Virus record (IMG/VR): IMGVR_UViG_3300033148_002105
Span: 1-32,504 of that record
Strand: one strand, 5' to 3'
From: a virus
DNA: 32,504 bases
Shown here: positions 2,924 to 32,504 of the stretch, one piece after another
How the letters are laid out: the number at the start of each line of letters is the position of its first letter
How positions within the stretch are numbered: the stretch's first letter is position 1
Made by a program: the position numbers and the translations under genes
The notes under the pieces: model-generated
Told to the model about the DNA's origin: nothing
Databases searched by the model: none
What the model saw: only the letters and a program-made list of their open reading frames with translations

Positions 2924-3472
2924 TTAATTTATTTTATTTAGTATAGAGCGTTTCACTTTCATATATTTTAAACGATTGTCAATATTCTTTATTTGGAAGA
3001 TATAATTATTCCTTTTATAATCATCTCCACCTTCTTCATGAGCTAGTTTTCTAAGTTCCATTTTAGACTTATTTAACGTAGCTATTATAAATTTTTCATC
3101 CTCATTAAATTCAACAATGCCTTTTATATAGTGAATAGATTTATTGTAATCAAATGTACGTGAATTATGTGTTTTATAACCTCTTGATTGAGTTAGCATT
3201 ATATAATACCCTTCATAATATTTCATCTCAGCTAAATCATTAGTGACTTTCAATACTTTAAATTCCCATCTATAAGGATTCAATGTAATGCTATCGTCTA
3301 ATGAAAAGTTAGAGTGATGGCTTTGTTCAAACATATTTGATTCTGCATTATAGTTATATCTACTTGACATTGATTTAGATGAGCCTATGTAAGCCTCTTT
3401 TAAAGTCTTGTTGTATATTATATAGACACTTGGCTTATCTGTTAATTCCGATTTGATTTTAATATTCTTCAT
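2924..3472 (-). CDS. GIY-YIG-fold protein (putative homing-type endonuclease)
   Basis: 182 aa. VYIIY at residues 16-20 and YIG at 28-30 match the two halves of the GIY-YIG signature. R38, E87 (in YYEGYYI) and N103 (GYKTHN) fall where the family's catalytic Arg, Glu and Asn lie. The C-terminal 75 residues are helical and Lys-rich, likely DNA-binding. It is only distantly similar to the two GIY-YIG proteins at 7426 and 12056 and lacks their NUMOD-like repeats. An early-type element (3482-3502) lies 9 bp upstream of the ATG. The last codons KIN and the TGA stop are followed directly by the next early-type element. Confidence 0.7.
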   Translation of the reverse strand: MKNIKIKSELTDKPSVYIIYNKTLKEAYIGSSKSMSSRYNYNAESNMFEQSHHSNFSLDDSITLNPYRWEFKVLKVTNDLAEMKYYEGYYIMLTQSRGYKTHNSRTFDYNKSIHYIKGIVEFNEDEKFIIATLNKSKMELRKLAHEEGGDDYKRNNYIFQIKNIDNRLKYMKVKRSILNKIN

Positions 3473-3481
3473 TTTATCGTT

Positions 3482-3502
3482 CTTTTATATTATATATTCA
3501 AT
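3482..3502 (-). promoter_or_regulatory. Early-type element
   Basis: Minus-strand ATTGAATATATAATATAAAA, about 10 bp before the ATG at 3472. It is almost identical to the elements at 2905, 3703 and 3875. Confidence 0.55.
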
Positions 3503-3698: not shown

Positions 3699-3702
3699 GT
3701 TT

Positions 3703-3721
3703 CTTTATATTATATATTCAG
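3703..3721 (-). promoter_or_regulatory. Early-type element without a following start codon
   Basis: Minus-strand CTGAATATATAATATAAAG. The TGA inside it is the stop codon of the 49-aa gene (3718-3720). Confidence 0.5.
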
Positions 3722-3867
3722 TTTATTTTATTTTTTTCAATTAGCACTTTCAATAGTTTTAATTCTGGTCTTATCTTTTTAAACTCTGTATGAGAAGAAC
3801 CGTTTGCGATTAATTTCTCATATGCATCTAAATATTCAAGTAGTAATAATAATGTATCTTTTTTCAT
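3718..3867 (-). CDS. 49-aa helical protein of unknown function
   Basis: Starts MKKDTLLLLLEYLDAYEKLI, continues as a charged helix and ends KNKIN-stop. The ATG is 7 bp downstream of an early-type element (3875-3894), and its stop codon lies in the next such element. Composition suggests a small soluble or amphipathic helical protein. No family is recognised. It lies immediately downstream of the endolysin gene, so it could be cotranscribed with it. Confidence 0.55.
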   Translation of the reverse strand: MKKDTLLLLLEYLDAYEKLIANGSSHTEFKKIRPELKLLKVLIEKNKIN

Positions 3868-3874
3868 AAGCGTT

Positions 3875-3894
3875 CTTTATATTATATATTCAAT
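3875..3894 (-). promoter_or_regulatory. Early-type element inside the endolysin 3' end
   Basis: Minus-strand ATTGAATATATAATATAAAG. Its core encodes the last endolysin codons E-Y-I-I-stop, so the control signal for the 49-aa gene is embedded in coding sequence. Confidence 0.55.
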
Positions 3895-4404
3895 CTTTTT
3901 TATTTTTTTACAAATGCTCAATCTTTTTTTATAATAACTTTTCCAAATAACGCCTCCTATGCTATCTACTACTACCCCTCTTGATGTAGAATGCATTATT
4001 TTATTATCGCCAATGTAGATAGCCACATGGCTTATATAGGATGTATTTCTTCCACTCGAAGATCTTTTAAAAAACAATAAATCCCCTTTGACAATGCTAT
4101 CAAAGGGGACTGACTCGCCAATCTTAGACTGGCTTCTCGAATTTCTCGGTATGGATATTCCATTATCCTTATATATATGTTGTGTCAAAGAAGAACAATC
4201 TATACCATTAGATGTAGTACCTCCATATTCATATTTGGTGCCAATGTATTTAGAATTGATTTTAAAGTGCATTTCGTTTGATTTAAGAGCCTTTAAGGAA
4301 CGTTTAGCATAATGTGCTGGAAATAATAAAGGTTGCTTAAACGGCGTTAAATAGCTAGAATTAAATGTGAGGAAACTTAAAAGGATTAATAATTTAGTTT
4401 TCAT
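3877..4404 (-). CDS. NlpC/P60 cell-wall hydrolase (endolysin)
   Basis: 175 aa. The N-terminus (MKTKLLILLSFLTFNSS) looks like a signal peptide or signal anchor, so export by the host pathway is possible. The NlpC/P60 domain spans about residues 52-160: YIGTKYEYGG, then C70 in GIDCSS (nucleophile), H126 in ISHVAIYIG and H138 in MHSTS complete the papain-like triad. The family cleaves peptide bonds in the peptidoglycan stem. It heads the minus-strand block with membrane proteins further downstream, as expected of a lysis module. Upstream it carries a late-type CGTATTA (4411-4417) and box c of the inverted-repeat module, consistent with late expression. Confidence 0.85.
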   Translation of the reverse strand: MKTKLLILLSFLTFNSSYLTPFKQPLLFPAHYAKRSLKALKSNEMHFKINSKYIGTKYEYGGTTSNGIDCSSLTQHIYKDNGISIPRNSRSQSKIGESVPFDSIVKGDLLFFKRSSSGRNTSYISHVAIYIGDNKIMHSTSRGVVVDSIGGVIWKSYYKKRLSICKKIKKIEYII

Positions 4405-4410
4405 AGTTAA

Positions 4411-4448
4411 TAATACGAAGTGATAGAATGGTACAGGGATAATGTGTT
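4411..4448 (-). promoter_or_regulatory. Late-type control region of the endolysin (CGTATTA plus box c)
   Basis: On the minus strand the 22-bp box (4448-4427, AACACATT-ATCCCT-GTACCATT) is followed after 9 bp by CGTATTA (4417-4411), just before the ATG at 4404. Confidence 0.5.
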
Positions 4449-4644
4449 TGTAGATATTAATAAAGTTTAACTATGTATAAGTATAACTATATATAAGTAT
4501 AAAGTAACATTATCTTCTTATGTATCACCCACTTTTAAAATAAAAACAGCTGTGGCTCAATGATACCGTGCGTTACAGCGTATTTTAGAGGGTGCAGTAT
4601 ATGGACAAAACAACGTGAAAAATAAATTAATAAACTTTGCTAAA
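4428..4644 (-). repeat. Long inverted repeat, copy 1 (bidirectional control region)
   Basis: The reverse complement matches 19099-19310 with about ten substitutions, one single-base indel and one 6-bp indel (about 95% identical by eye). It fills the divergent gap between the endolysin (leftward) and the 4691 gene (rightward). Inside are an imperfect hairpin with a GCTGT/ACAGC stem and two imperfect ~16-bp direct repeats (TATACTTATATATAGT / TATACTTATACATAGT, read on the minus strand). No ORF is present. See the finding for the interpretation. Confidence 0.85.
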
Positions 4645-4663
4645 ATAGAAAAAATAAACAAAC

Positions 4664-4683
4664 TAAATATATAATATAAAAAG
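4664..4683 (+). promoter_or_regulatory. Early-type element
   Basis: TAAATATATAATATAAAAAG on the plus strand, 7 bp before the ATG at 4691. It has TAAATATATAAT in place of TGAATATATAAT. Confidence 0.55.
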
Positions 4684-4690
4684 AAACATT

Positions 4691-4996
4691 ATGACAAGAG
4701 AAGAATTTGACGAAAAGTTATTAGACACATTTAGTGTAAGTGAGATTGCCATTATTAACACTAACATATTTTATAATGAGGATCACAAGGAATATTTTAA
4801 TAAGTTCCATTCGAGAGAGTATGAATGGTGTTATGATTATTTAGTAGAACATAGAAAGTTATTAAGCTTATCTCATACTCCTAGTAAGTATAAAGATTAT
4901 GCGATTAAACTAATTGAAAATGCTAAAGTGTTATATCGTCATGAAGCAAGTATGAAAGAGGACAATAAACAAAAACTATCTACAATATCAAAGTAA
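4691..4996 (+). CDS. 101-aa protein of unknown function
   Basis: A soluble, helical and charged protein (MTREEFDEKLLDTFS...; WCYDYLVEHRKLLSL in the middle; a hydrophilic tail). No domain is recognised. It forms a transcription unit of its own: an early-type element 7 bp upstream and a strong terminator directly after the stop. It faces away from the endolysin across inverted-repeat copy 1, in the position the polymerase gene has at copy 2. That arrangement suggests an early, possibly regulatory or host-takeover role, which is inference only. Confidence 0.7.
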   Translation: MTREEFDEKLLDTFSVSEIAIINTNIFYNEDHKEYFNKFHSREYEWCYDYLVEHRKLLSLSHTPSKYKDYAIKLIENAKVLYRHEASMKEDNKQKLSTISK

Positions 4997-5040
4997 AATT
5001 AAAACGCTGTTAAAATATCAATTCTAACAGCGTTTTAATT
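4997..5040. terminator. Strong bidirectional terminator
   Basis: A 16-bp perfect inverted repeat (4997-5012 with 5025-5040; core AAAACGCTGTTA/TAACAGCGTTTT) around a 12-nt loop, with A-tract on one side and T-tract on the other. It serves the 4691 gene and, on the other strand, the sigma-like gene's 3' side. Confidence 0.85.
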
Positions 5041-5087
5041 ATTTATAGCTATTCATACTAAATTATACTTCCATACTCTTAAATCAA

Positions 5088-5666
5088 CTAAAACAGTGCA
5101 TTTGGAATGTTTGAAAGCGTTTTATGCTCTATGTTACTATCTTTTAAGAACTCTAACAGTATTTCATTGCCATCTATCTTATCTGCTATTTTCATATTTA
5201 TTTTAATTAAGTATCTGTTTAATGTTTGTCTACTTATTTTCAAGTACGTTTGCATTTCCATTTTAGATTTCTTTTCAACATATATCTTTTGAATTAAGAA
5301 TTGTTCCACTCTGGTCAATTCAGTTATTATATTTTTCAATTGGTATTTATAGTCTGTTTCTATTTCGTAATCCGTATCGAAGTGAGCATCATGTATATAG
5401 CCATTCTTACGTGAATAATCAGTATTTCTTTTCTTACGAGATTTCTCCCGTCTCATGTAATCTATTATATAATTCTTGCATATAGTTGTAAAGTAAGAAT
5501 GCCTTTTAGATAAATCTTTACTAGAATCGTAATTTCCTTTTGTCACTATTTTAATATACACTTCATTTATAATATCATCTGTCATGTTTACAAAGTGTGC
5601 GAATTTAGATTTTATAAATGGCGGCAGTATCGCTTGTAGTTTGTCATATATTTCAATTTCAGTCAT
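5088..5666 (-). CDS. Phage sigma-70-family (ECF-like) factor
   Basis: 192 aa from ATG at 5666; an in-frame TTG lies 6 bp further up. Numbering counts that TTG as 1. Residues about 31-83 fit region 2 (DDIINEVYIKIV ... SYFTTICKNYIIDYMRREKSRKK, the core-binding and -10 contact helices). Residues about 115-165 fit region 4 (LTRVEQFLIQKIYVEKKS then SRQTLNRYLIKINMKI, a helix-turn-helix). A short acidic linker joins them and no region 3 is visible. It should bind host RNA polymerase core and redirect it. Its own upstream region has an early-type element. Divergent from it, the terminase operon has a late-type element, so it is a good candidate activator of the late genes. Confidence 0.75.
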   Translation of the reverse strand: MTEIEIYDKLQAILPPFIKSKFAHFVNMTDDIINEVYIKIVTKGNYDSSKDLSKRHSYFTTICKNYIIDYMRREKSRKKRNTDYSRKNGYIHDAHFDTDYEIETDYKYQLKNIITELTRVEQFLIQKIYVEKKSKMEMQTYLKISRQTLNRYLIKINMKIADKIDGNEILLEFLKDSNIEHKTLSNIPNALF

Positions 5667-5676
5667 AATCAATCCT

Positions 5677-7402: not shown

Positions 7403-7421
7403 CTGAATATATAATATAAAA
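7403..7421 (+). promoter_or_regulatory. Early-type element for the GIY-YIG gene
   Basis: CTGAATATATAATATAAAA on the plus strand, 4 bp before the ATG at 7426. It gives the endonuclease an expression signal unlike that of the flanking late genes. Confidence 0.55.
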
Positions 7422-7425
7422 AACA

Positions 7426-8088
7426 ATGCGAACAGGTATAATATATATAGCAACTAATACCATTAATAATAAGGTTTATATAGGTCAAACTATTCAAGGA
7501 TTACAAAAAAGGAAGTCGCAGCATATTAAAAATGCAGTATCTAAATGTGACAATATGTATTTCCATAAAGCAATACGTAAATATGGTAAGGATAATTTTA
7601 AATGGGAAGTATTAGTAGACTGTCCTATTAGTGATTTAAATGATCAAGAAATATATTGGATTAAATACTGGGATAGTTTTGGCAAAAGGGGTTATAACTC
7701 AACTATTGGCGGAAGTTTAGGAGCGAATGGTTTCAAAGGTAGAAAGCATAGTATTGAAACAAAGCTATTGCTAAGCATTCGATCAAAAGAAGACGGTTAT
7801 GGTATGAGAGGAAAAAAACACTCTGCGCATTCAAGAAAAAAAATGTCAATACAGAAAAAAGGGAAGTTGCTATATAATGCTCATAAACAAAAGTTATCTA
7901 AGATTCGCCAAGGTATTAATAATCCTAATGCAGATAGCACTATTTATACATTTTATAACAAAGAATTAGATATTATAGAAAAATGCACTAGACTGGAATT
8001 GCAAGACAAATACGGGGTAAAATCACTAGGAGGATTATTTGCGACAAGAGTTCAAAAAACAGCTTATGGATGGAGTTTGCTTTATTAA
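7426..8088 (+). CDS. GIY-YIG homing endonuclease
   Basis: 220 aa. The GIY-YIG nuclease domain covers residues 4-95: GIIYIATN, VYIG (17-20), R29/H33, E75 in DQEIYWIKYW and N91 in GYNST. Two NUMOD3-like DNA-binding repeats follow (GFKGRKHSIETK at about 102-113, GMRGKKHSAHSRKKMS at 126-141). A C-terminal segment (about 172-220, TIYTFYNKE ... GLFATRVQKTAYGWSL) probably also contacts DNA. Such proteins cut intron- or gene-less alleles and spread themselves; this one is free-standing between terL and the connector gene. It has its own early-type element. Its last codons merge with the late control region at 8079. Confidence 0.9.
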   Translation: MRTGIIYIATNTINNKVYIGQTIQGLQKRKSQHIKNAVSKCDNMYFHKAIRKYGKDNFKWEVLVDCPISDLNDQEIYWIKYWDSFGKRGYNSTIGGSLGANGFKGRKHSIETKLLLSIRSKEDGYGMRGKKHSAHSRKKMSIQKKGKLLYNAHKQKLSKIRQGINNPNADSTIYTFYNKELDIIEKCTRLELQDKYGVKSLGGLFATRVQKTAYGWSLLY

Positions 8089-8140
8089 TATCTACAAACA
8101 CATAATCCCTGTACCATTATCAATACGTATTACTATAAAC
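8079..8140 (+). promoter_or_regulatory. Late control region, half-copy of the inverted-repeat module (box a plus ACGTATTA)
   Basis: From CTTTATTAATATCTACAAAC (8079) onward the sequence matches the right half of the inverted-repeat module at 19271-19325 almost base for base. It includes the 22-bp box (8097-8118, AACACATA-ATCCCT-GTACCATT) and ACGTATTA (8125-8132). It precedes the connector gene at 8154. The left half of the module is absent, replaced by the end of the GIY-YIG gene. Confidence 0.65.
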
Positions 8141-12049: not shown

Positions 12050-12055
12050 GAAGTG

Positions 12056-12721
12056 ATGAAAAGCGGTGTTATATATAAAGTTACTAATATTATCAATGGC
12101 AAAGTGTATGTTGGTCAGACTAGGAACTCAATGGAATACCGCATGAAACAACACTTGCGATCTAAAGACAATGTATATTTTCACAGAGCCATCCGTAAAT
12201 ACGGAGAAGATAGTTTTAAATGGGAAGTTCTAGTAGAATGCCCTATTAAAGACTTAAATGCTCAAGAAAGTTATTGGATTAAACATTGGAATAGTTTTAG
12301 TGCAGAAGGATATAACTTGACTAATGGAGGCGATGTTACAGAAATAAGCTATGCTACAAAAATTAAAATAAGCAACTCTTTGAAAAACCATAAAGTAACT
12401 GACATCACAAGAAATAAAATAAGTATAGCTAAGACATGCACAAAGGCGTCCGATGCCACTAAAGTGAAACTATCGAAATGTAACTTAGGAGATAAAAATC
12501 CAATGTATGGCAAAACGTTTTCAACTGAACACAGACGAAAAATGTCAAACATGCAATGGAAAAAGGACTATACTATATACACGTTCTATAATAAAAAATT
12601 AAATATCACAGAAAATTGTGATAGGTACGAATTACAAACAAAATACAAAATAAATATAAACAATCTATTCAGAACAATAAAGCCTAGAAAAACTTGTAAT
12701 GGATGGGAGTTAATAAATTAA
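12056..12721 (+). CDS. GIY-YIG homing endonuclease
   Basis: 221 aa from ATG 12056; the GTG at 12053 is in frame, but ATG aligns with the starts of the other two copies (MKSGV / MRTGI / MKTGI). GIY-YIG domain in residues 4-92: GVIYKVTN, KVYVGQT, R29/H33, E71 in AQESYWIKHW and N87 in GYNLT. A NUMOD3-like repeat is visible as NPMYGKTFSTEHRRKMS. The C-terminus (TIYTFYNKKLNI ... TCNGWELIN) matches the copy at 7426, so the two are paralogues. It lies between protease-scaffold and major capsid genes. The start is 6 bp after the preceding stop and no early-type element is seen, so it is expressed from the late operon. Confidence 0.9.
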   Translation: MKSGVIYKVTNIINGKVYVGQTRNSMEYRMKQHLRSKDNVYFHRAIRKYGEDSFKWEVLVECPIKDLNAQESYWIKHWNSFSAEGYNLTNGGDVTEISYATKIKISNSLKNHKVTDITRNKISIAKTCTKASDATKVKLSKCNLGDKNPMYGKTFSTEHRRKMSNMQWKKDYTIYTFYNKKLNITENCDRYELQTKYKININNLFRTIKPRKTCNGWELIN

Positions 12722-16955: not shown

Positions 16956-17309
16956 ATGAAACAAGATTTAGAGAGAATCAAACATTTGAAAGAGCTTTTT
17001 GAGCAGTTAAAAACAGAGCATAAAGACGTATTTGAATTGACAGTAGGCGACGAACCAGTTAAAGATGAGAAAGATACGAGATTATATGGGTATTTTCGTA
17101 AACCTACTTTTAACGAGTTCAGAATGATATACCCTTTAATAGTAAAAGGAGACGATCTAAGTGCTGACAAGCGTTTAGTAGAGACATGCTGGTTAGGAGG
17201 AGATCCTGAAATGATAGATATAGATAATAATTTAGATGTATTTCTTTCCATGAAGTCAGAATTATCACAACTTATTGAAATTAAATCTGCTAGCTTAAAA
17301 AAAAAGTAG
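16956..17309 (+). CDS. Tail assembly chaperone, short (G-like) product
   Basis: 117 aa, helical and charged. It contains the pattern typical of such chaperones in this phage group: LTVGDEPVKDEKDTRLYGYF then RKPTFNEFRMIYPLI and ETCWLGGDPEMI. It would bind the tape measure during tail assembly. The gene ends in a run of nine A and a TAG stop. Slippage there yields the longer product (see 17306-17485). The tape measure gene follows, but only after a minus-strand polymerase gene interrupts the operon, which is unusual. Confidence 0.8.
   Translation: MKQDLERIKHLKELFEQLKTEHKDVFELTVGDEPVKDEKDTRLYGYFRKPTFNEFRMIYPLIVKGDDLSADKRLVETCWLGGDPEMIDIDNNLDVFLSMKSELSQLIEIKSASLKKK
17295..17306 (+). other. -1 frameshift slippery site
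   Basis: TTAAAAAAAAAG: nine A between TT and G, directly before the TAG (17307-17309) of the short chaperone frame. A -1 slip places the ribosome in the frame that opens on GTA at 17306 and stays open to 17485. Homopolymer slippage by polymerase or a sequencing error in the run are the alternatives. Confidence 0.7.
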
Positions 17310-17485
17310 ATAAATATTCATTAAGTAAAAAAGAAGGTGAGGACGAGTTCTTAAAACAAGACGGACTTATTGCGTACCATTTCAATATTGACACAAGTGA
17401 AATGAGTGAAGATGAATGGGCAATGAGATGGAATCAACTTTTATGGGTGAAGGCTCAAGAATCCAAAGCATTTGAAAAGAAATAA
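17306..17485 (+). CDS. T-like extension of the tail assembly chaperone (via -1 frameshift)
   Basis: 59 residues before TAA (17483-17485). They begin VDKYSLSKKEGEDEFLKQDG and end with EDEWAMRWNQLLWVKAQESK, a Trp-containing helical segment like the end of GT-type chaperones. No start codon suits independent translation. The fusion product 16956-17485 would be 176 aa. The extension contacts tail subunits in lambda-like systems, and the same two-product scheme is common before the tape measure gene. Confidence 0.75.
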   Translation, partial: VDKYSLSKKEGEDEFLKQDGLIAYHFNIDTSEMSEDEWAMRWNQLLWVKAQESKAFEKK

Positions 17486-17487
17486 AA

Positions 17488-17521
17488 AAAGGGAACAATC
17501 GGTTTAACGGTTGTTCCCTTT
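17488..17521. terminator. Bidirectional terminator
   Basis: AAAGGGAACAA (17488-17498) pairs with TTGTTCCCTTT (17511-17521): 11 bp with A and T tracts at both ends. It separates the rightward chaperone gene from the leftward polymerase gene. Confidence 0.85.
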
Positions 17522-17606: not shown

Positions 17607-18890
17607 CTATTTCAATTCATAATCTTTATATCCGTGCTTTTCAAATTCTGCAATAACGGTTTCTAACATGAAGTCTTTGTCACTACTCTTAACATATAAA
17701 CTATCGTGACAGCTTAGACACCATTCAGTAGAAGATACATTTTTATAAGCTTCAATGAATATGGTTGCTTCATCTTTTTGCAACGTTAAAGGAAGATATT
17801 TTTTGTCAGTGCTTTTTATTTTATTAATCTCTTTATATACAGAAGGATATGCTTGCTTAAATACATTCAATAGAGCAGCTCCGCCATTTATACCTTTATA
17901 CATTACTTTTAAGAACTCAGGTTTGATATCATCTCTACTATCGAAGTATTCAATGCTTTTTTCACAAGATACTACTTTGCCGTGTTCTCTTTTCAATTTA
18001 TAACTTTGGAATGCATTATGACCATTCAGCGATACATATTCTTTTAATAATTCTGTATAAATATCTTTCTTAGTAACATCTTCATAGAACGTTTTAATAT
18101 TTTCATCTTCGCCGTTAGTTTTTAATAAGCGAGAAGCTAGGAAATAAGGCTGTGACGACTTTAAATCCGATTGGACTAGTGATTCTCCATTCACATAGCA
18201 AAAGCCTCTTAATTCTCTTTTAATAAGGTTAAACGTATGGAATATTCTGCCAGTTTTATTGTCTTCTACTATCACCCATTTCTTATCGTTCATATCATTT
18301 ATCATTCGTTGATATGTGTTATATTTGTGAGTGGCGAATGTGATGTCTGTATCGAAATAACCTTCTGTTACTAAGTTAGATAGCCATTTTATTGCAGATG
18401 GATAATCGAATTCTATTTGGTTTAACATTTTATATGCGCCCCAATGTTTTCTATCAAACTCGCTTCTATTGTATGAGCTTTTAATTTTCTTATATAAAGT
18501 TGAATTATTAGTCATTATGTATTCTTGGATAGTAAGCTCTTCTATTTCAACATCGTTTGCGAAATTCAATGCTATCCAATAGTCTTTTGATTTTTGCCCA
18601 ACTATATAACTATTATCAGTTTGAATTATACCTTTTTCTATAGATATGTCGATTATAGATTTGTAATGCCTCCAGCCTAATAAATTAGATATATACGATG
18701 CTTTTAATCTGGCTTTAATGTTTCTAAATGTTTTCTCTGGGTGAGACGTTGATTGCCTTTCTATTAGCTCATAGAACATATAGAATTTCTCTCTAGGAAG
18801 TTTCTTTGAATAATCGTTTTGAAGTAATTCATCCACTTTATTAATGAATGCTCTGCTGAATCGTGTTAATTTGTAATTTCTTTTTGACAT
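17607..18890 (-). CDS. Minimal family-A/T7-like single-subunit polymerase
   Basis: 427 aa. Polymerase motifs are visible in order: motif A with D242 in LVQSDLKSSQPYFLASR (242-250 core), preceded by RIFHTFNLIKRELRGF; a motif B-like segment KVMYKGINGG (328-337) followed by LNVFKQAYPSVYKEI; motif C CHDSLYV with H395/D396. The two aspartates D242 and D396 would bind the catalytic metals. The N-terminal 220 residues are helical; no 3'-5' exonuclease motifs are seen. T7 RNA polymerase also has HDS at motif C, so DNA synthesis, priming or RNA synthesis are all possible. It is the only polymerase in the genome. A structured leader and an early-type element lie upstream. Confidence 0.7.
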   Translation of the reverse strand: MSKRNYKLTRFSRAFINKVDELLQNDYSKKLPREKFYMFYELIERQSTSHPEKTFRNIKARLKASYISNLLGWRHYKSIIDISIEKGIIQTDNSYIVGQKSKDYWIALNFANDVEIEELTIQEYIMTNNSTLYKKIKSSYNRSEFDRKHWGAYKMLNQIEFDYPSAIKWLSNLVTEGYFDTDITFATHKYNTYQRMINDMNDKKWVIVEDNKTGRIFHTFNLIKRELRGFCYVNGESLVQSDLKSSQPYFLASRLLKTNGEDENIKTFYEDVTKKDIYTELLKEYVSLNGHNAFQSYKLKREHGKVVSCEKSIEYFDSRDDIKPEFLKVMYKGINGGAALLNVFKQAYPSVYKEINKIKSTDKKYLPLTLQKDEATIFIEAYKNVSSTEWCLSCHDSLYVKSSDKDFMLETVIAEFEKHGYKDYELK

Positions 18891-19026: not shown

Positions 19027-19034
19027 TAATACGT
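19027..19034 (-). promoter_or_regulatory. Late-type ACGTATTA element, minus strand
   Basis: Minus-strand ACGTATTA followed by TAAGTATA, 4 bp upstream of the structured leader. Together with the early-type element at 19061 it suggests that the polymerase gene can be read in both phases. Confidence 0.4.
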
Positions 19035-19060
19035 TTTGAAATTAAAAAAGTTTAGTTCCT

Positions 19061-19079
19061 CTACATTATATATTCACTT
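19061..19079 (-). promoter_or_regulatory. Early-type element (variant) for the polymerase
   Basis: Minus-strand AAGTGAATATATAATGTAG, about 170 bp before the polymerase ATG. That is far more than the usual ~10 bp, and the space is filled by the structured leader. Here the element behaves like a promoter, since it is too distant to be a ribosome-binding signal. Confidence 0.5.
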
Positions 19080-19098
19080 AATTTAATTTTTTTACGTT

Positions 19099-19310
19099 TT
19101 TAGCAAAGTTTTTTAATTTATTTTTCATGTTGTTTTGTCCATAAACTGCACCCTCTAAAACACGCTGTAACGCACGGCATCATTGAGCCACAGCGTGTTT
19201 TTATTTTAAAAGCGGGTGATCCATAAGAAGATAATGTTACTTTATACTTATATATAGTTATACTTAGTTAAACTTTATTAATATCTACAAACACATAATC
19301 CCTATACCAT
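19099..19310 (+). repeat. Long inverted repeat, copy 2 (bidirectional control region)
   Basis: Matches the reverse complement of 4428-4644 at about 95%. The early-type side faces the polymerase and the late-type side faces the RusA gene, mirroring copy 1 (4691 gene and endolysin). This copy lacks 6 bp in the second of the two direct repeats (TATACTTA...). Confidence 0.85.
19157..19201 (+). terminator. Hairpin within the inverted repeat, terminator-like
   Basis: AAAACACGCTGT (19157-19168) pairs with ACAGCGTGTTTT (19190-19201), 12 bp. The 21-nt loop contains an inner GGC...GCC pairing, and the tail is T-rich (TATTTT). In copy 1 the inner pairing is kept (GGT...GCC) while the outer stem is partly lost. 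It may block read-through between the divergent halves. Confidence 0.55.
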
Positions 19311-19331
19311 TGCCAATCCGTATTACTGTTA
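19290..19331 (+). promoter_or_regulatory. Late-type control region of RusA (box b plus CGTATTA)
   Basis: Box AACACATA-ATCCCT-ATACCATT (19290-19311), then after 7 bp CGTATTACTGTTATA (19319 on), about 25 bp before the RusA ATG. Confidence 0.5.
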
Positions 19332-19355: not shown

Positions 19356-19730
19356 ATGAAAATATTTATCCCTTTTAACACTCCTTCAAGTAAGAATAGT
19401 AAAGTATGGACTGGTAAATTTCTTGTATGGAGTAAAACAGCTCAGAAATACATCAAGGATTCAAAGCCTTATTTCGCATCTAACAAAAGTATATTTATTG
19501 ATATGGTTAAAGATTTAGAAAAGCCTTATGATATTGAATTTACATTTGTAAGAAAGTCTAAACACAAGTTCGACTATCCTAATCCACTCCAAACTGTTTT
19601 AGATTTAATGGTTAAGTATGAATGGTTGGAAGATGACAACGCTGATGAAATTAGACCCTTTTTCGGCTACTACAGCTACGATAAGGAAAAACCAGGTGTA
19701 TATATTGACATCTACCAAAAAGACTGCTAA
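19356..19730 (+). CDS. RusA-like Holliday junction resolvase
   Basis: 124 aa, the usual size. The N-terminal FIPFNTPSSKNSK matches the RusA IP..P.S.N pattern. The catalytic region holds D73 (HKFDYPNPLQ), D83 (VLDLMVKYEWL) and D93/D94 (EDDNADEI), the set of metal-binding aspartates of the family. RusA cuts four-way junctions, here probably to resolve branched replication or recombination intermediates before packaging. It is transcribed away from the polymerase gene and just ahead of the tape measure, with a late-type control region, so it fits resolution at packaging time. Confidence 0.82.
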   Translation: MKIFIPFNTPSSKNSKVWTGKFLVWSKTAQKYIKDSKPYFASNKSIFIDMVKDLEKPYDIEFTFVRKSKHKFDYPNPLQTVLDLMVKYEWLEDDNADEIRPFFGYYSYDKEKPGVYIDIYQKDC

Positions 19731-19820: not shown

Positions 19821-21599
19821 ATGCCAAATAATACAGTGGATTTCAGGTTGCGTTTGATAGACGATCTTAGCAAAGAAATGAAGAAGACTCAAAAGATTAC
19901 AGAGTCGTCTTTAAAAGGTATGTCTAAAGAACAAGTAAAACTTACTAAGAAAACACATGACTACGAAAAACAGATAGTAGATTTACGCAATGAACAACAT
20001 AAAGCAAGTAAAGATCGTAAAAAGCAAATACGCGAAGAAATTAGATTACTTGGACAACTTAATAAGCAGACTAAAAAACAATTAGTAGAAGCTGGTAAAC
20101 AACAACGAGTAAAAACTAAAACAACATTTGGCGATAGGATATCAGGAGGAGTGACTGCGGGCATAGGTCGAGCAGCGGGTATGTTTGGAGGAGCTGCCGC
20201 TGTTGGGGGATTAGCGATGTCTGCTTACGATATGTCTAAAGAAGTTGCTAAAGTAGAAACGTCATTAAAACGAGCGTTTCAATCTACTGGTGAAGAGCTT
20301 ACTAAACAAGCATCGCAAGTTAGATTTTTATCACAAGCTTACGATGAAGACTATAAACAAGTTGTTCAATCTGCAAACGCATTATCTAAAGAAATGGGCA
20401 TTAGTGGAACAGAAGCATTGAAACTTATTGAACAAGGTTTTCAAAAAGGTGCGAATGAATCTGGTGAGTTCCTTGATATGTTAAAAGAATATCCAACTCA
20501 ATTAAAAGAAGTTGGTTTAAATGCAGAGGAATCAATCGCATTAATGACTCAACAAGTACAAGAAGGTATTTATTCCGATAAAGGTGTTGATGCAATTAAA
20601 GAGGCTGGTTTAAGACTGAAAGCAAATAATAAAGCAACAAAAACAGCATTAGGATATTTAAAGAAGCAAACGCAGGATGAAATAAAATTGCAAATTGCAA
20701 AAGGAGATACGTTCAAGGCTATACAGTTAATATCTAAAGGGTTAAAAGATACTTCGTTATCTGCAGAACAAACACAGGCATTAATAAGTGATGTATTTGG
20801 CGGACCAGGTGAAGATGCTGGATTAAGATATTTAAAAACATTAGGGGATATTAATCTTGAATTGGCAGATGTTCCAGATAACATGTCGGATGCTGAAAAG
20901 GCTCAAAAAAGTTTGACAAAGGAATGGACTAGTTTTACAACTGGAATAGTATCTGGTAAGGGTTCTTTAGGTGAATTTTTTACAGTTTTAACCAAAGGCA
21001 TCGCATCTGCAATGAGTAGCATTAATATCGCAATGGGAACTGGAGCTAGTTTCTATAGAGATGTTGCTGGTAGAGTTAAAGTAAAAGGAGCAGGCGTTGT
21101 AAAAGGTGAATTAGAAACAGAGCGTAAACAATTAAGGAAAGAAGTTTTTGAAAGTCGAGAAAAATATGGAGCACTGTTAAAACATACTGGCGGTGTTACA
21201 TTAGAGGATGCAGCTAAATTAGCTAAAATAGAAAGTCTTACAAAAGCTATTGATAAATTTACTGAAAAAGGTATTAGTGCTAAAAAAGCAGGACTATTAT
21301 CTACATTAGGTTTACCAACAATCGAAGGTGTATCAGAAAAAGATAAAGTAATAGATAAAACTGGTAAACCAGGTAAACCAAAAATTACTAAAGCAGAAGC
21401 AGATAGCTTGACTAAAATATCCACACAACGTTCTGTTAAATCATTGACTATTAATATGGAAGCATTGGTAGTAAATAAAGACGGAGGGTCATTGATAAGC
21501 ACTACTAATATTACAGAAAGTATGTCAGAAATAGAACGTAAAATATATGATGTGTTGAGTAATGTTATAAACAGTGGTTCGCAACAAATATTTGCATAA
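19821..21599 (+). CDS. Tail tape measure protein
   Basis: 592 aa. A coiled coil at about 35-95 (KDRKKQIREEIRLLGQLNKQ) is followed by a Gly/Ala hydrophobic stretch at 109-136 (GAAAVGGLAMSAY) and a helical domain at about 140-330 (VETSLKRAFQSTGEELTK, LKEYPTQLKEVGLNAEES) typical of tape measure cores. The protein sets tail length and is ejected on infection. At 592 residues it predicts a short tail, on the order of 90 nm at ~0.15 nm per residue. The chaperone gene that normally precedes it lies 2.3 kb upstream, beyond the polymerase insertion. Confidence 0.85.
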   Translation: MPNNTVDFRLRLIDDLSKEMKKTQKITESSLKGMSKEQVKLTKKTHDYEKQIVDLRNEQHKASKDRKKQIREEIRLLGQLNKQTKKQLVEAGKQQRVKTKTTFGDRISGGVTAGIGRAAGMFGGAAAVGGLAMSAYDMSKEVAKVETSLKRAFQSTGEELTKQASQVRFLSQAYDEDYKQVVQSANALSKEMGISGTEALKLIEQGFQKGANESGEFLDMLKEYPTQLKEVGLNAEESIALMTQQVQEGIYSDKGVDAIKEAGLRLKANNKATKTALGYLKKQTQDEIKLQIAKGDTFKAIQLISKGLKDTSLSAEQTQALISDVFGGPGEDAGLRYLKTLGDINLELADVPDNMSDAEKAQKSLTKEWTSFTTGIVSGKGSLGEFFTVLTKGIASAMSSINIAMGTGASFYRDVAGRVKVKGAGVVKGELETERKQLRKEVFESREKYGALLKHTGGVTLEDAAKLAKIESLTKAIDKFTEKGISAKKAGLLSTLGLPTIEGVSEKDKVIDKTGKPGKPKITKAEADSLTKISTQRSVKSLTINMEALVVNKDGGSLISTTNITESMSEIERKIYDVLSNVINSGSQQIFA

Positions 21600-25113: not shown

Positions 25114-25380
25114 ATGGCAGTATCAGTAAATATAAATACTAATGACGTAATTTCATCTTATTCAAATGAGATAATAGCTAAACGTTTTGAAAATCAAACA
25201 CCTTTTGACTTTGCATTGACATATTTAGAGTATATTGAAGACATGTTTGAATTTTATAAGCAATTTAACATGGGAGATTACAACGATTTTTATAATGCTC
25301 AAGAATATAGAATAGTTAAATATATAAACCCTTTAGTATTAAATGGTTATATTGCTGCTACTAAAACAGAAAATATATAA
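25114..25380 (+). CDS. Duplicated small baseplate-region protein, copy 1
   Basis: 88 aa. About 65% identical by eye to the next gene: both start MA(V/I)S(V/I)NIN and share SSYSNEIIA(K/R)RFE(N/S)QTP, DFALTYLE and a QEYRI...YINPL block. A helical middle (YLEYIEDMFEFYKQFNMGDY) suggests a small alpha-helical protein. No family is recognised. It sits between wedge and fibre genes and could be part of the baseplate rim. Confidence 0.75.
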   Translation: MAVSVNINTNDVISSYSNEIIAKRFENQTPFDFALTYLEYIEDMFEFYKQFNMGDYNDFYNAQEYRIVKYINPLVLNGYIAATKTENI

Positions 25381-25392
25381 AAACAAATAGAA

Positions 25393-25707
25393 ATGGCAAT
25401 ATCAATAAATATCAATAGCAATAATAGCGTAAGTTCTTATTCAAATGAGATAATAGCTAGACGTTTTGAAAGTCAAACACCACTTGATTTTGCATTGACG
25501 TATTTAGAAAGAATTGAAGATATGTTTAAGTTTTATAGGCAATTTAAAATAGAGCAATACAATGACTTTTATGACGTTCAAGAATATAGAATAACTAATT
25601 ATATAAACCCATTGAGTAAAGAAGGATATATAGCTGCTACTAAAACAGATTATCTTGAATTATTTCCAAGTGATTTCAATTCGGATTGGAGTGATGACTT
25701 CTTTTAA
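25393..25707 (+). CDS. Duplicated small baseplate-region protein, copy 2
   Basis: 104 aa, a tandem paralogue of 25114-25380 starting 12 bp after its stop. It has a 15-residue acidic/aromatic extension at the C-terminus (LFPSDFNSDWSDDFF) absent from copy 1. The two would suit a hetero-oligomer or a stepwise replaced subunit. Confidence 0.75.
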   Translation: MAISININSNNSVSSYSNEIIARRFESQTPLDFALTYLERIEDMFKFYRQFKIEQYNDFYDVQEYRITNYINPLSKEGYIAATKTDYLELFPSDFNSDWSDDFF

Positions 25708-31684: not shown

Positions 31685-32504
31685 ATGGCAAGATCAGTTG
31701 ACACTCTGTTTCAATTAATGCAAACAGAAAAGAATACAATGTCTTATATAAAAGATAAGTTGACAAATCCAGATGGAACAACAACTATTAAGACAGAGCA
31801 AGAGTTACTTACTGAATTACAATCGACTAACCCAGTAGGTATTTGGAGACTTTGGCAGTTTTTAACAGCTGTTGAAATGAATTTCCTTGAACAAAATTGG
31901 GATGAGATTAGAACTGAAATTGAAGATATTAAAGCTAGTGCATTCATTGGTGGTAAAGAATGGTGGGTAGAAAAATGTGAGGAATGGCAAAACGGAGACT
32001 TTGTAATAATTGATCCAGATAACTATTCTATTCATTATGATATTATAGATGAAAATAAACAATTAATTAAACATGCAACTATTAGTGAAATTGGAGGCAA
32101 AGTAATATTAAAAGTTCAAAAAGAATATGAAACACCTATTAATTTATTATCAACAGCTGAATTAGAATCATTTACAAGTTATGTTAATAAAGTAAAATTT
32201 GCAGGAACAAGAATAAATATATGGAACTTTAATCCTGATTTATTACATTTGGAATACACAATATATTACGATCCATTAATAAATATATCTACTATAACAA
32301 CAAATGTAGAAAAAGTCATTGGGGATTATATACAAAACTTACCATTTGATAGTGAATTTAGTAAAACAGAATTGACAAACTTATTACAAGACGTCGAAGG
32401 CGTTATATCGCCAGTATTTACATTCGGTGAAGGAAAAACTGAAGGTGGTAATTACGTTGAATTTGATAATTACTATACGGGTATTGCAGGGTTTTGTGCA
32501 ATTG
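31685..32504 (+). CDS. Baseplate wedge (J-like) protein, 5' part
   Basis: Begins MARSVDTLFQLMQTEKNTMS and runs off the end of the window; it continues in frame at 1-167 for 290 aa in total. NPVGIWRLWQFLTAVEMNFL and KEWWVEKCEEWQNGDF match a protein repeatedly found in Bacteroidota phage baseplate modules. The later part (GTRINIWNFNPDLLHLEY, then VEKVIGDYIQNLPFDSEF) resembles the C-terminal region of J/gp47 wedge proteins. It would form the baseplate ring with the gp25-like protein. It is shorter than typical J (about 380 aa). No other J candidate exists in the genome. Confidence 0.7.
   Translation, partial: MARSVDTLFQLMQTEKNTMSYIKDKLTNPDGTTTIKTEQELLTELQSTNPVGIWRLWQFLTAVEMNFLEQNWDEIRTEIEDIKASAFIGGKEWWVEKCEEWQNGDFVIIDPDNYSIHYDIIDENKQLIKHATISEIGGKVILKVQKEYETPINLLSTAELESFTSYVNKVKFAGTRINIWNFNPDLLHLEYTIYYDPLINISTITTNVEKVIGDYIQNLPFDSEFSKTELTNLLQDVEGVISPVFTFGEGKTEGGNYVEFDNYYTGIAGFCAI
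32391..32504 (+). repeat. Terminal overlap, right copy
   Basis: Identical to 1-114; see that entry. Features in this stretch should be counted once. Confidence 0.95.

Follow-up and report, generated by a model that had tools for sequence, protein, structure and literature searches.

A predicted minimal family-A polymerase related to divPolA2, relocated into the tail operon of a complete small phage genome

The window, by which we mean the whole stretch of 32,504 nucleotides that was analyzed, is a complete phage genome, circular or terminally redundant. Model and motifs identify its 427-amino acid polymerase gene as encoding a predicted minimal, exonuclease-less nucleic-acid polymerase of family A, a relative of divPolA2. 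The enzyme belongs to a little-known family that is unrecognized by Pfam, NCBIfam, and PADLOC. With moderate confidence, we regard it as a member of the divPolA2/TV-Pol group that would be made early and act as a DNA primer-polymerase, starting genome replication with the help of the host.

Results

Catalytic motifs and distribution of the family

The polymerase ORF is unbroken from ATG to stop and lies on the minus strand (Table 1), at the position given in the preliminary description, which did not name the strand. The two catalytic aspartates proposed there, D242 (DLKSSQP) and D396 (CHDS), are found where they were placed, and both are conserved throughout the 42-member alignment A3. Also invariant in A3 are Y104, R215, S246, Q247, P248, Y278, K323, and E374, and near-invariant (at least 93%) are R228 (40/42), H395, and S397. 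The segment previously called "B-like" was understated: R319 and K323 align with the motif-B Arg and Lys of T7 DNA polymerase and form a genuine motif B. In a profile alignment the motif A segment DLKSSQP aligns without gaps with DFKAFE of divPolA2.

Table 1. Positions of the polymerase, its motifs, and neighboring features in the window
Feature	Position	Strand	Evidence
Minimal family-A polymerase (predicted), 427 aa	17607..18890	-	ORF; AF2 model and PDB matches; 42-member alignment A3
Motif A DLKSSQPY, catalytic D242, Q247 at steric-gate Glu position	18144..18167	-	D242/S246/Q247/P248 42/42
Motif B R319-x3-K323, fingers	17922..17936	-	K 42/42; R 35/42, Lys in 7
Motif C H395-D396-S397	17700..17708	-	D 42/42, H 41/42, S 39/42
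N-terminal domain, residues 1-125, winged-helix-like, in place of exonuclease and extra thumb	18516..18890	-	AF2 and weak matches
Tail assembly chaperone with frameshifted extension, left insertion border	16956..17485	+	A-run slippery site; extension conserved in G007
Terminator-like hairpin closing operon upstream of insertion	17488..17521	+	Fold z -5.8
Early-type promoter motif facing polymerase	19059..19075	-	2 mismatches to GAATATATAATATAAAG
Divergent promoter cassette, ~250 bp, between polymerase and RusA	19062..19311	.	Inverted 90% copy, self-BLAST
Other cassette copy, between NlpC/P60 gene and ORF 4691	4427..4678	.	Self-BLAST
Late-type promoter motif CGTATTA facing RusA and tape measure	19318..19325	+	1 mismatch to ACGTATTA
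RusA-like Holliday-junction resolvase, inserted with polymerase	19356..19730	+	phrog_1682 4.7e-18
Tape measure protein, right insertion border	19821..21599	+	phrog_37298 2.2e-44, phrog_5755 9.4e-13
Sigma-like factor	5088..5672		

Searches of NCBIfam, PADLOC, and PDB sequences returned nothing for the window polymerase, and those of Pfam and PHROGs nothing above noise; Pfam PF00476 did not match it. The 42-row profile yielded nothing usable against Pfam, NCBIfam, PADLOC, and PDB sequences. PHROGs matched one of the 42 family members, and none had a plausible Pfam family. PF00476 was matched in 2 of 50 family records, where it is a separate gene. A search of plasmids was empty.

A second contig, which matches the window at 99.995% identity across 20 kb, encodes the identical polymerase. 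Iterated alignment searches recovered two proteins that are 46-47% identical to it (L006 and L007), and further iteration led to ~80 viral loci with D[IL]x[NS]SQP in common. By tblastn, distant relatives were detected in metagenomic huge phages (595-735 kb). All 11 relatives found in cellular genomes in a scan with alignment A6 were from Bacteroidota. The host is probably a Bacteroidota bacterium, as judged from the cellular relatives only. When 119 genomes of one Bacteroidota class were drawn evenly, 6 had a member of the family, including the center genome, which had been picked as a carrier. Several bacterial relatives lie, as judged by eye, near integrase-, serine-recombinase-, or ParB-like genes.

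Predicted fold and domains

The AlphaFold2 (AF2) model of the polymerase, built on A3, had a mean pLDDT of 84.2 and a pTM of 0.80. Foldseek returned 27 PDB matches below 1e-3, all of them family-A DNA polymerases with the apicoplast polymerase first. The best 50 PDB matches listed by VIA-align were all family-A DNA polymerases or RNA polymerases of the T7/mitochondrial type (Z 12.8-14.4). For residues ~140-427 the Z scores were 14.4 with the apicoplast polymerase, 13.9 with T7 DNA polymerase, 13.6 with Pol theta, and 13.3 with Klenow; in this region the model leaves palm and fingers as good as shown. The structure prediction that had been proposed as a check thus found the polymerase palm, in line with the family-A/T7-like palm and fingers suspected earlier. 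In the model, paired helices (163-176 and 187-201) precede the hairpin.

Direct profile alignment to PolA was collinear over fingers and motif C at a probability of 9-26%, and no profile link of the family to T7 or SP6 RNA polymerase was obtained; the divPolA2 profile, in contrast, was matched at 97.7%. Because the PolA alignment is weak, the family-A assignment is based on structure and motifs, and the residue equivalences of Q247 and Q371 are based on motif order and fold.

The AF2 model contains no exonuclease domain, as had been proposed; the first ~140 residues are modeled as winged-helix-like instead. When residues 1-144 were modeled alone (pLDDT 76), the best matches were winged-helix proteins, including the plasmid RepA N-domains 4pql, 4pt7, and 5kbj, at Z 6-7, where values below 7 lie in the range that the tool calls common. 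The N-terminal domain is likely a winged helix, and it may tether the polymerase to DNA.

Residues of sugar selection

The fifth residue after the motif A aspartate is Gln in 42/42 family members. T7 DNA polymerase, SP6 DNA polymerase, and typical divPolA2 have Glu at this place, and the RNA polymerases of T7 and SP6 have Gly. Q371 was aligned to Q615 of T7 DNA polymerase. T7 RNA polymerase recognizes ribose through Gly542 and His784, the latter at the Q371/Q615 position. Neither this Gly nor this His is present in the window polymerase, which has Gln247 and Gln371. The pair disfavors a T7-type RNA polymerase and favors a DNA polymerase whose sugar selection may be altered; the Gln that all members have at the steric gate points to relaxed or altered selection and not to a true RNA polymerase. 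The earlier remark that HDS at motif C fits T7 RNA polymerase is correct, but it carries little weight, as HDS occurs in 39 of the 42 relatives and Gln247 and Gln371 are unlike T7 RNA polymerase.

Complete genome and its gene content

The first and last 114 bases of the window are identical (1-114 = 32391-32504), which gives a circle of 32,390 bp, and a baseplate ORF that is cut at the window end runs on across the junction to 290 amino acids. The possibility that the window is a mere fragment was dropped when the identical ends were found. A small relative, G001, has 141-bp identical ends and is a complete circle of 29,154 bp. G008 likewise has 120-bp identical ends and was not counted as complete because these lie inside a collagen-like repeat.

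Nearly all window proteins were scanned. The matches included Mu-like portal, protease, capsid, virion-assembly, and sheath proteins, a terminase, NlpC/P60, RusA, a sigma-like factor, and GIY-YIG nucleases. Among the proteins scanned there was no match to a helicase, primase, ligase, SSB, integrase, or repressor, which bears out the earlier statement on the first four. No polymerase other than the 427-amino acid protein was found in the window genome, and none other than the family polymerase in G001; searches with DnaB_C and PolA were empty in G001, G002, and close small relatives. Because the window genome is complete, the absence of helicase, primase, and SSB is meaningful. G001 shows the same pattern of a family polymerase with no other recognizable replication gene. 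The gene had been called the only recognizable replication enzyme; this holds for the polymerase, primase, and helicase classes, but RusA had been overlooked. Replication could rest wholly on the host. A family-B polymerase (PolB) is encoded by 10 of 16 large relatives, and since PolB is usually present there, the family polymerase appears auxiliary in the larger phages.

Rfam matched only two tRNAs in the window. The GC skew gave no origin signal and rises steadily with the coding strand. Three GIY-YIG endonuclease genes are present (2924-3472, 7426-8088, and 12053-12721); the second and third share a stretch of DNA with 78% identity, and the third lies between the protease and capsid genes. 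Two small genes (25114-25380 and 25393-25707) are tandem duplicates with about 81% DNA identity.

Insertion site and probable exchange of the polymerase

The gene lies between tail chaperone and tape measure, as described earlier, and the suggestion that it had moved there is supported by an uninterrupted operon in a sister phage and by conflicting gene trees. G007 is a close relative whose head and tail proteins are mostly 66-75% identical to those of the window phage. Its chaperone adjoins the tape measure gene, separated from it by no more than a short hairpin and the frameshifted end of the chaperone, and RusA is likewise missing from this place. Locus L009 is almost certainly the same phage as G007 because the two overlap at 99.4% over 5.8 kb. 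L009 carries its family polymerase (3701-5113, ~22% identical to the window polymerase, CHDA at motif C) next to NlpC and sigma in its early region, and in G001 and G002 the gene is located in the early block. In the terminase tree the window groups with L009, G007, and L010 (support 95/96). In the polymerase tree it groups with L006 and L007 (100/99), and L009 falls outside a 99/97 clade, although as a long branch its exact place is less sure. Since the two trees conflict, the window lineage, besides moving its polymerase, probably exchanged it too. At the chaperone end, 17290-17485 contains an A-run slippery site and resembles the programmed frameshift of gpG/gpGT systems.

Promoter motifs and a duplicated cassette

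By self-BLAST a 250-bp segment at 4427-4678 recurs inverted, with 90% identity, between polymerase and RusA. Both copies pair an early-type motif at one end with a late-type motif that lies past the opposite end. The early-type motif GAATATATAATATAAAG occurs before early genes at 9 sites in the window compared with 1.7 expected, and exact ACGTATTA, the late-type motif, at 10 sites compared with 1.8 expected, mostly before structural genes. GAATATATAATATAAAG was located at 2905-2921, 3483-3499, 3703-3719, 3875-3891, 4665-4681, and 7405-7421, mostly just 5' of start codons; ACGTATTA was located at 936, 8125, 11041, 15417, 25733, and 31042, 20-60 bases 5' of structural genes. It is possible that ACGTATTA is a late promoter for the phage sigma-like factor. 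Both motifs are present in near-identical form in L009.

The duplicate would be a divergent promoter cassette and forms part of the evidence for how the move occurred. Because it carries an early-type motif toward the polymerase, the gene may have kept an early promoter inside a late operon; RusA and tape measure have late-type motifs. Against early expression, the early-type motif has two mismatches and a second late-type motif (19027-19034) likewise faces the polymerase. Both cassette copies contain a hairpin, ACACGCTGT...ACAGCGTGT (19130-19215 on the minus strand, z -2.7; 4520-4605, z -2.2), a candidate terminator, leader, or origin element. A 55-bp cassette fragment lies at 8080-8134, where the GIY-YIG gene 7426-8088 ends, a hint that parts of the cassette move about.

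Nucleases beside the polymerase

Small relatives that lack RusA encode proteins of ~140-163 amino acids with a PD-(D/E)xK-like E-x-K signature in the early region of the polymerase, mostly within 3 kb of it (G001, G002, L033, L035, and L036). Small PD-(D/E)xK-like proteins of the polymerase region were recorded in L113 (16005-16484), L115 (1-418), L033 (4826-5317), L035 (5671-6180), and L036 (5680-6183). In the window phage RusA occupies the place beside the polymerase. Because it takes the place of the PD-(D/E)xK-like neighbor, the arrangement suggests that polymerase and junction nuclease are a working pair.

Discussion

In the scheme that we favor, the polymerase would be made early, and its winged-helix N-terminal domain would bring it to DNA, perhaps to the origin. 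The palm would then make a short DNA start, the host replisome (helicase, polymerase III, SSB, and ligase) would do the remainder, and RusA would resolve recombination or replication intermediates. The fold, the invariant motifs, the kinship to divPolA2, and two complete genomes with no other recognizable replication gene argue for this scheme, as do the early motif upstream of the gene and the de novo priming by CcPol-MP. It is weakened by the PolB genes of the large phages, where the enzyme seems auxiliary, by the SSB-like partner without which CcPol does not prime and which was not recognized here, and by the weak assignment of the N-terminal domain (Z below 7).

That PolB is usual in the large phages would equally suit an accessory repair or recombination polymerase, which extends 3' ends of recombination intermediates or bypasses damage together with RusA and leaves both initiation and copying of the genome to the host replisome. 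RusA came in together with the polymerase, a PD-(D/E)xK-like nuclease gene accompanies the polymerase in related small phages, and the authors of divPolA2 themselves favor a repair or RNA polymerase role, as its carriers also encode PolB (PMC11348598). That two complete ~30-kb genomes of the myophage lineages keep the gene and have no other recognizable replication gene would be odd for a mere repair enzyme, and we consider this role rather unlikely. The insertion itself, which breaks an operon that is intact in the sister phage, raises the thought that polymerase and RusA are a recently acquired mobile cassette with nothing essential to do in the window phage, and related genes do lie in integrase- or resolvase-linked elements of Bacteroidota genomes. 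The catalytic residues are all kept, however, the insert carries its own promoters, and L009, G001, and G002 also have a family polymerase at some position; of the alternatives we grant this one the least probability.

A single-subunit T7-like RNA polymerase would give a reason for the repeated AT-rich 17-bp promoter-like motifs, from which it would transcribe the phage genes. The HDS at motif C is like that of T7 and SP6 RNA polymerase, and yeast mitochondrial RNA polymerase aligned with the model over its full length at Z 13.3, though with an rmsd of 6.0 A. The promoters of such an enzyme should change with the polymerase, yet L009 has both motifs nearly unchanged with a polymerase that is only ~22% identical. 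The phage also encodes its own sigma-like factor, Gln247 and Gln371 stand where T7 RNA polymerase has Gly542 and His784, and T7 and SP6 RNA polymerase have no profile link to the family. A T7-type RNA polymerase is unlikely, and we give transcription of the phage genes from these motifs very little chance.

The primer-polymerase scheme can be taken one step further. Gln-gate minimal family-A enzymes might be self-sufficient origin-binding primer-polymerases, combining winged helix and palm, that in tailed phages with complete genomes of ~30 kb take over, on their own, the tasks of a phage-encoded initiator, helicase loader, primase, and polymerase, and possibly make mixed ribo/deoxy primers. 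We put this forward as a speculation that is probably wrong in its full extent. Enzymes of the divPolA2 type have been viewed as auxiliary, given that a regular polymerase is also encoded by their known carriers. In the present case, two small genomes, both complete, have a divPolA2 relative as their only recognizable gene of the polymerase, primase, or helicase class, which opens the role of the enzyme to a direct test. A concrete biochemical prediction follows from the invariant Gln at the sugar-selecting position. The case also combines a probable polymerase swap with relocation into a late operon, accompanied by what may be its own divergent early/late promoter cassette.

Comparison with known polymerases

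The closest known relatives are divPolA2 proteins, described in 2024 from barbaviruses and ICP1-type phages as a palm with an uncharacterized N-terminal domain and no exonuclease (PMC11348598). An eight-sequence divPolA2 profile aligned with A3 in hhalign at a probability of 97.7% (E 1.7e-12) with GR, R, D, RxxxK, and HD(S/E) in register, and an HMM widened by bacterial members matched the second ICP1-type paralogue (VMJ710) at 1.2e-14; homology to divPolA2 AUR84708 and its relatives was thus found by both methods. In the viral structure search the top matches were phage proteins of the same length, followed by Barba31A and Aeromonas 2L372X proteins, phages in which divPolA2 was placed by the literature or homologues were found in this analysis. 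Both groups share a family-A palm, the lack of a 3' exonuclease, a globular N-terminal domain that is not a thumb, and a length of ~430 amino acids (PMC11348598). The window family nevertheless forms a separate, well supported clade in the tree and has Gln at the steric gate in all 42 members, where divPolA2 has Glu. Motif C is HDS in the window polymerase and varies from FDE to HDS in divPolA2. Phages with divPolA2 also have a regular PolB, whereas the window phage has no other polymerase.

The TV-Pol family was defined by Iyer et al. in 2008 (PMC2579912). Every one of its residue features that was compared was found: R215 in 42/42, R228 in 40/42, D242 and D396 in 42/42, and R/K319 with K323, corresponding to the two palm aspartates, the hairpin Arg, and the RxxxK of the fingers, along with the paired helices before the hairpin. 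Bacteroidota relatives with 400-600 amino acids that lie beside integrases or resolvases are a further likeness. The TV-Pol-type association with a D5 helicase (fused or nearby), resolvase, or integrase was not detected in protein scans of the window genome, and MAP_030 of Ma-LMM01, a guessed TV-Pol candidate beside a transposase, reached only E 0.3-0.5 against the family profile. The family has most TV-Pol features and is, by sequence, a candidate member.

CcPol is grouped with the TV-Pols, and it carries out de novo priming of DNA in concert with MP, its partner (PMC7581432). Like CcPol-MP and PolA-SSB of SCCmec, the window gene would be a family-A polymerase on a mobile element with a proposed primer-polymerase role (PMC7581432, PMC10061031). 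CcPol retains the Glu and Phe of Pol I at the sugar-selection positions (PMC7581432), where the window polymerase has Gln247 and Leu327. The SSB-like partner gene of CcPol, MP, has no recognized counterpart in the window phage; no Pfam SSB match was obtained, and partners of the MP type are known to escape sequence searches. With T7-like RNA polymerase the window polymerase shares the palm fold and the HDS of motif C, and it differs in size, with 427 amino acids compared with 883 in T7 RNA polymerase.
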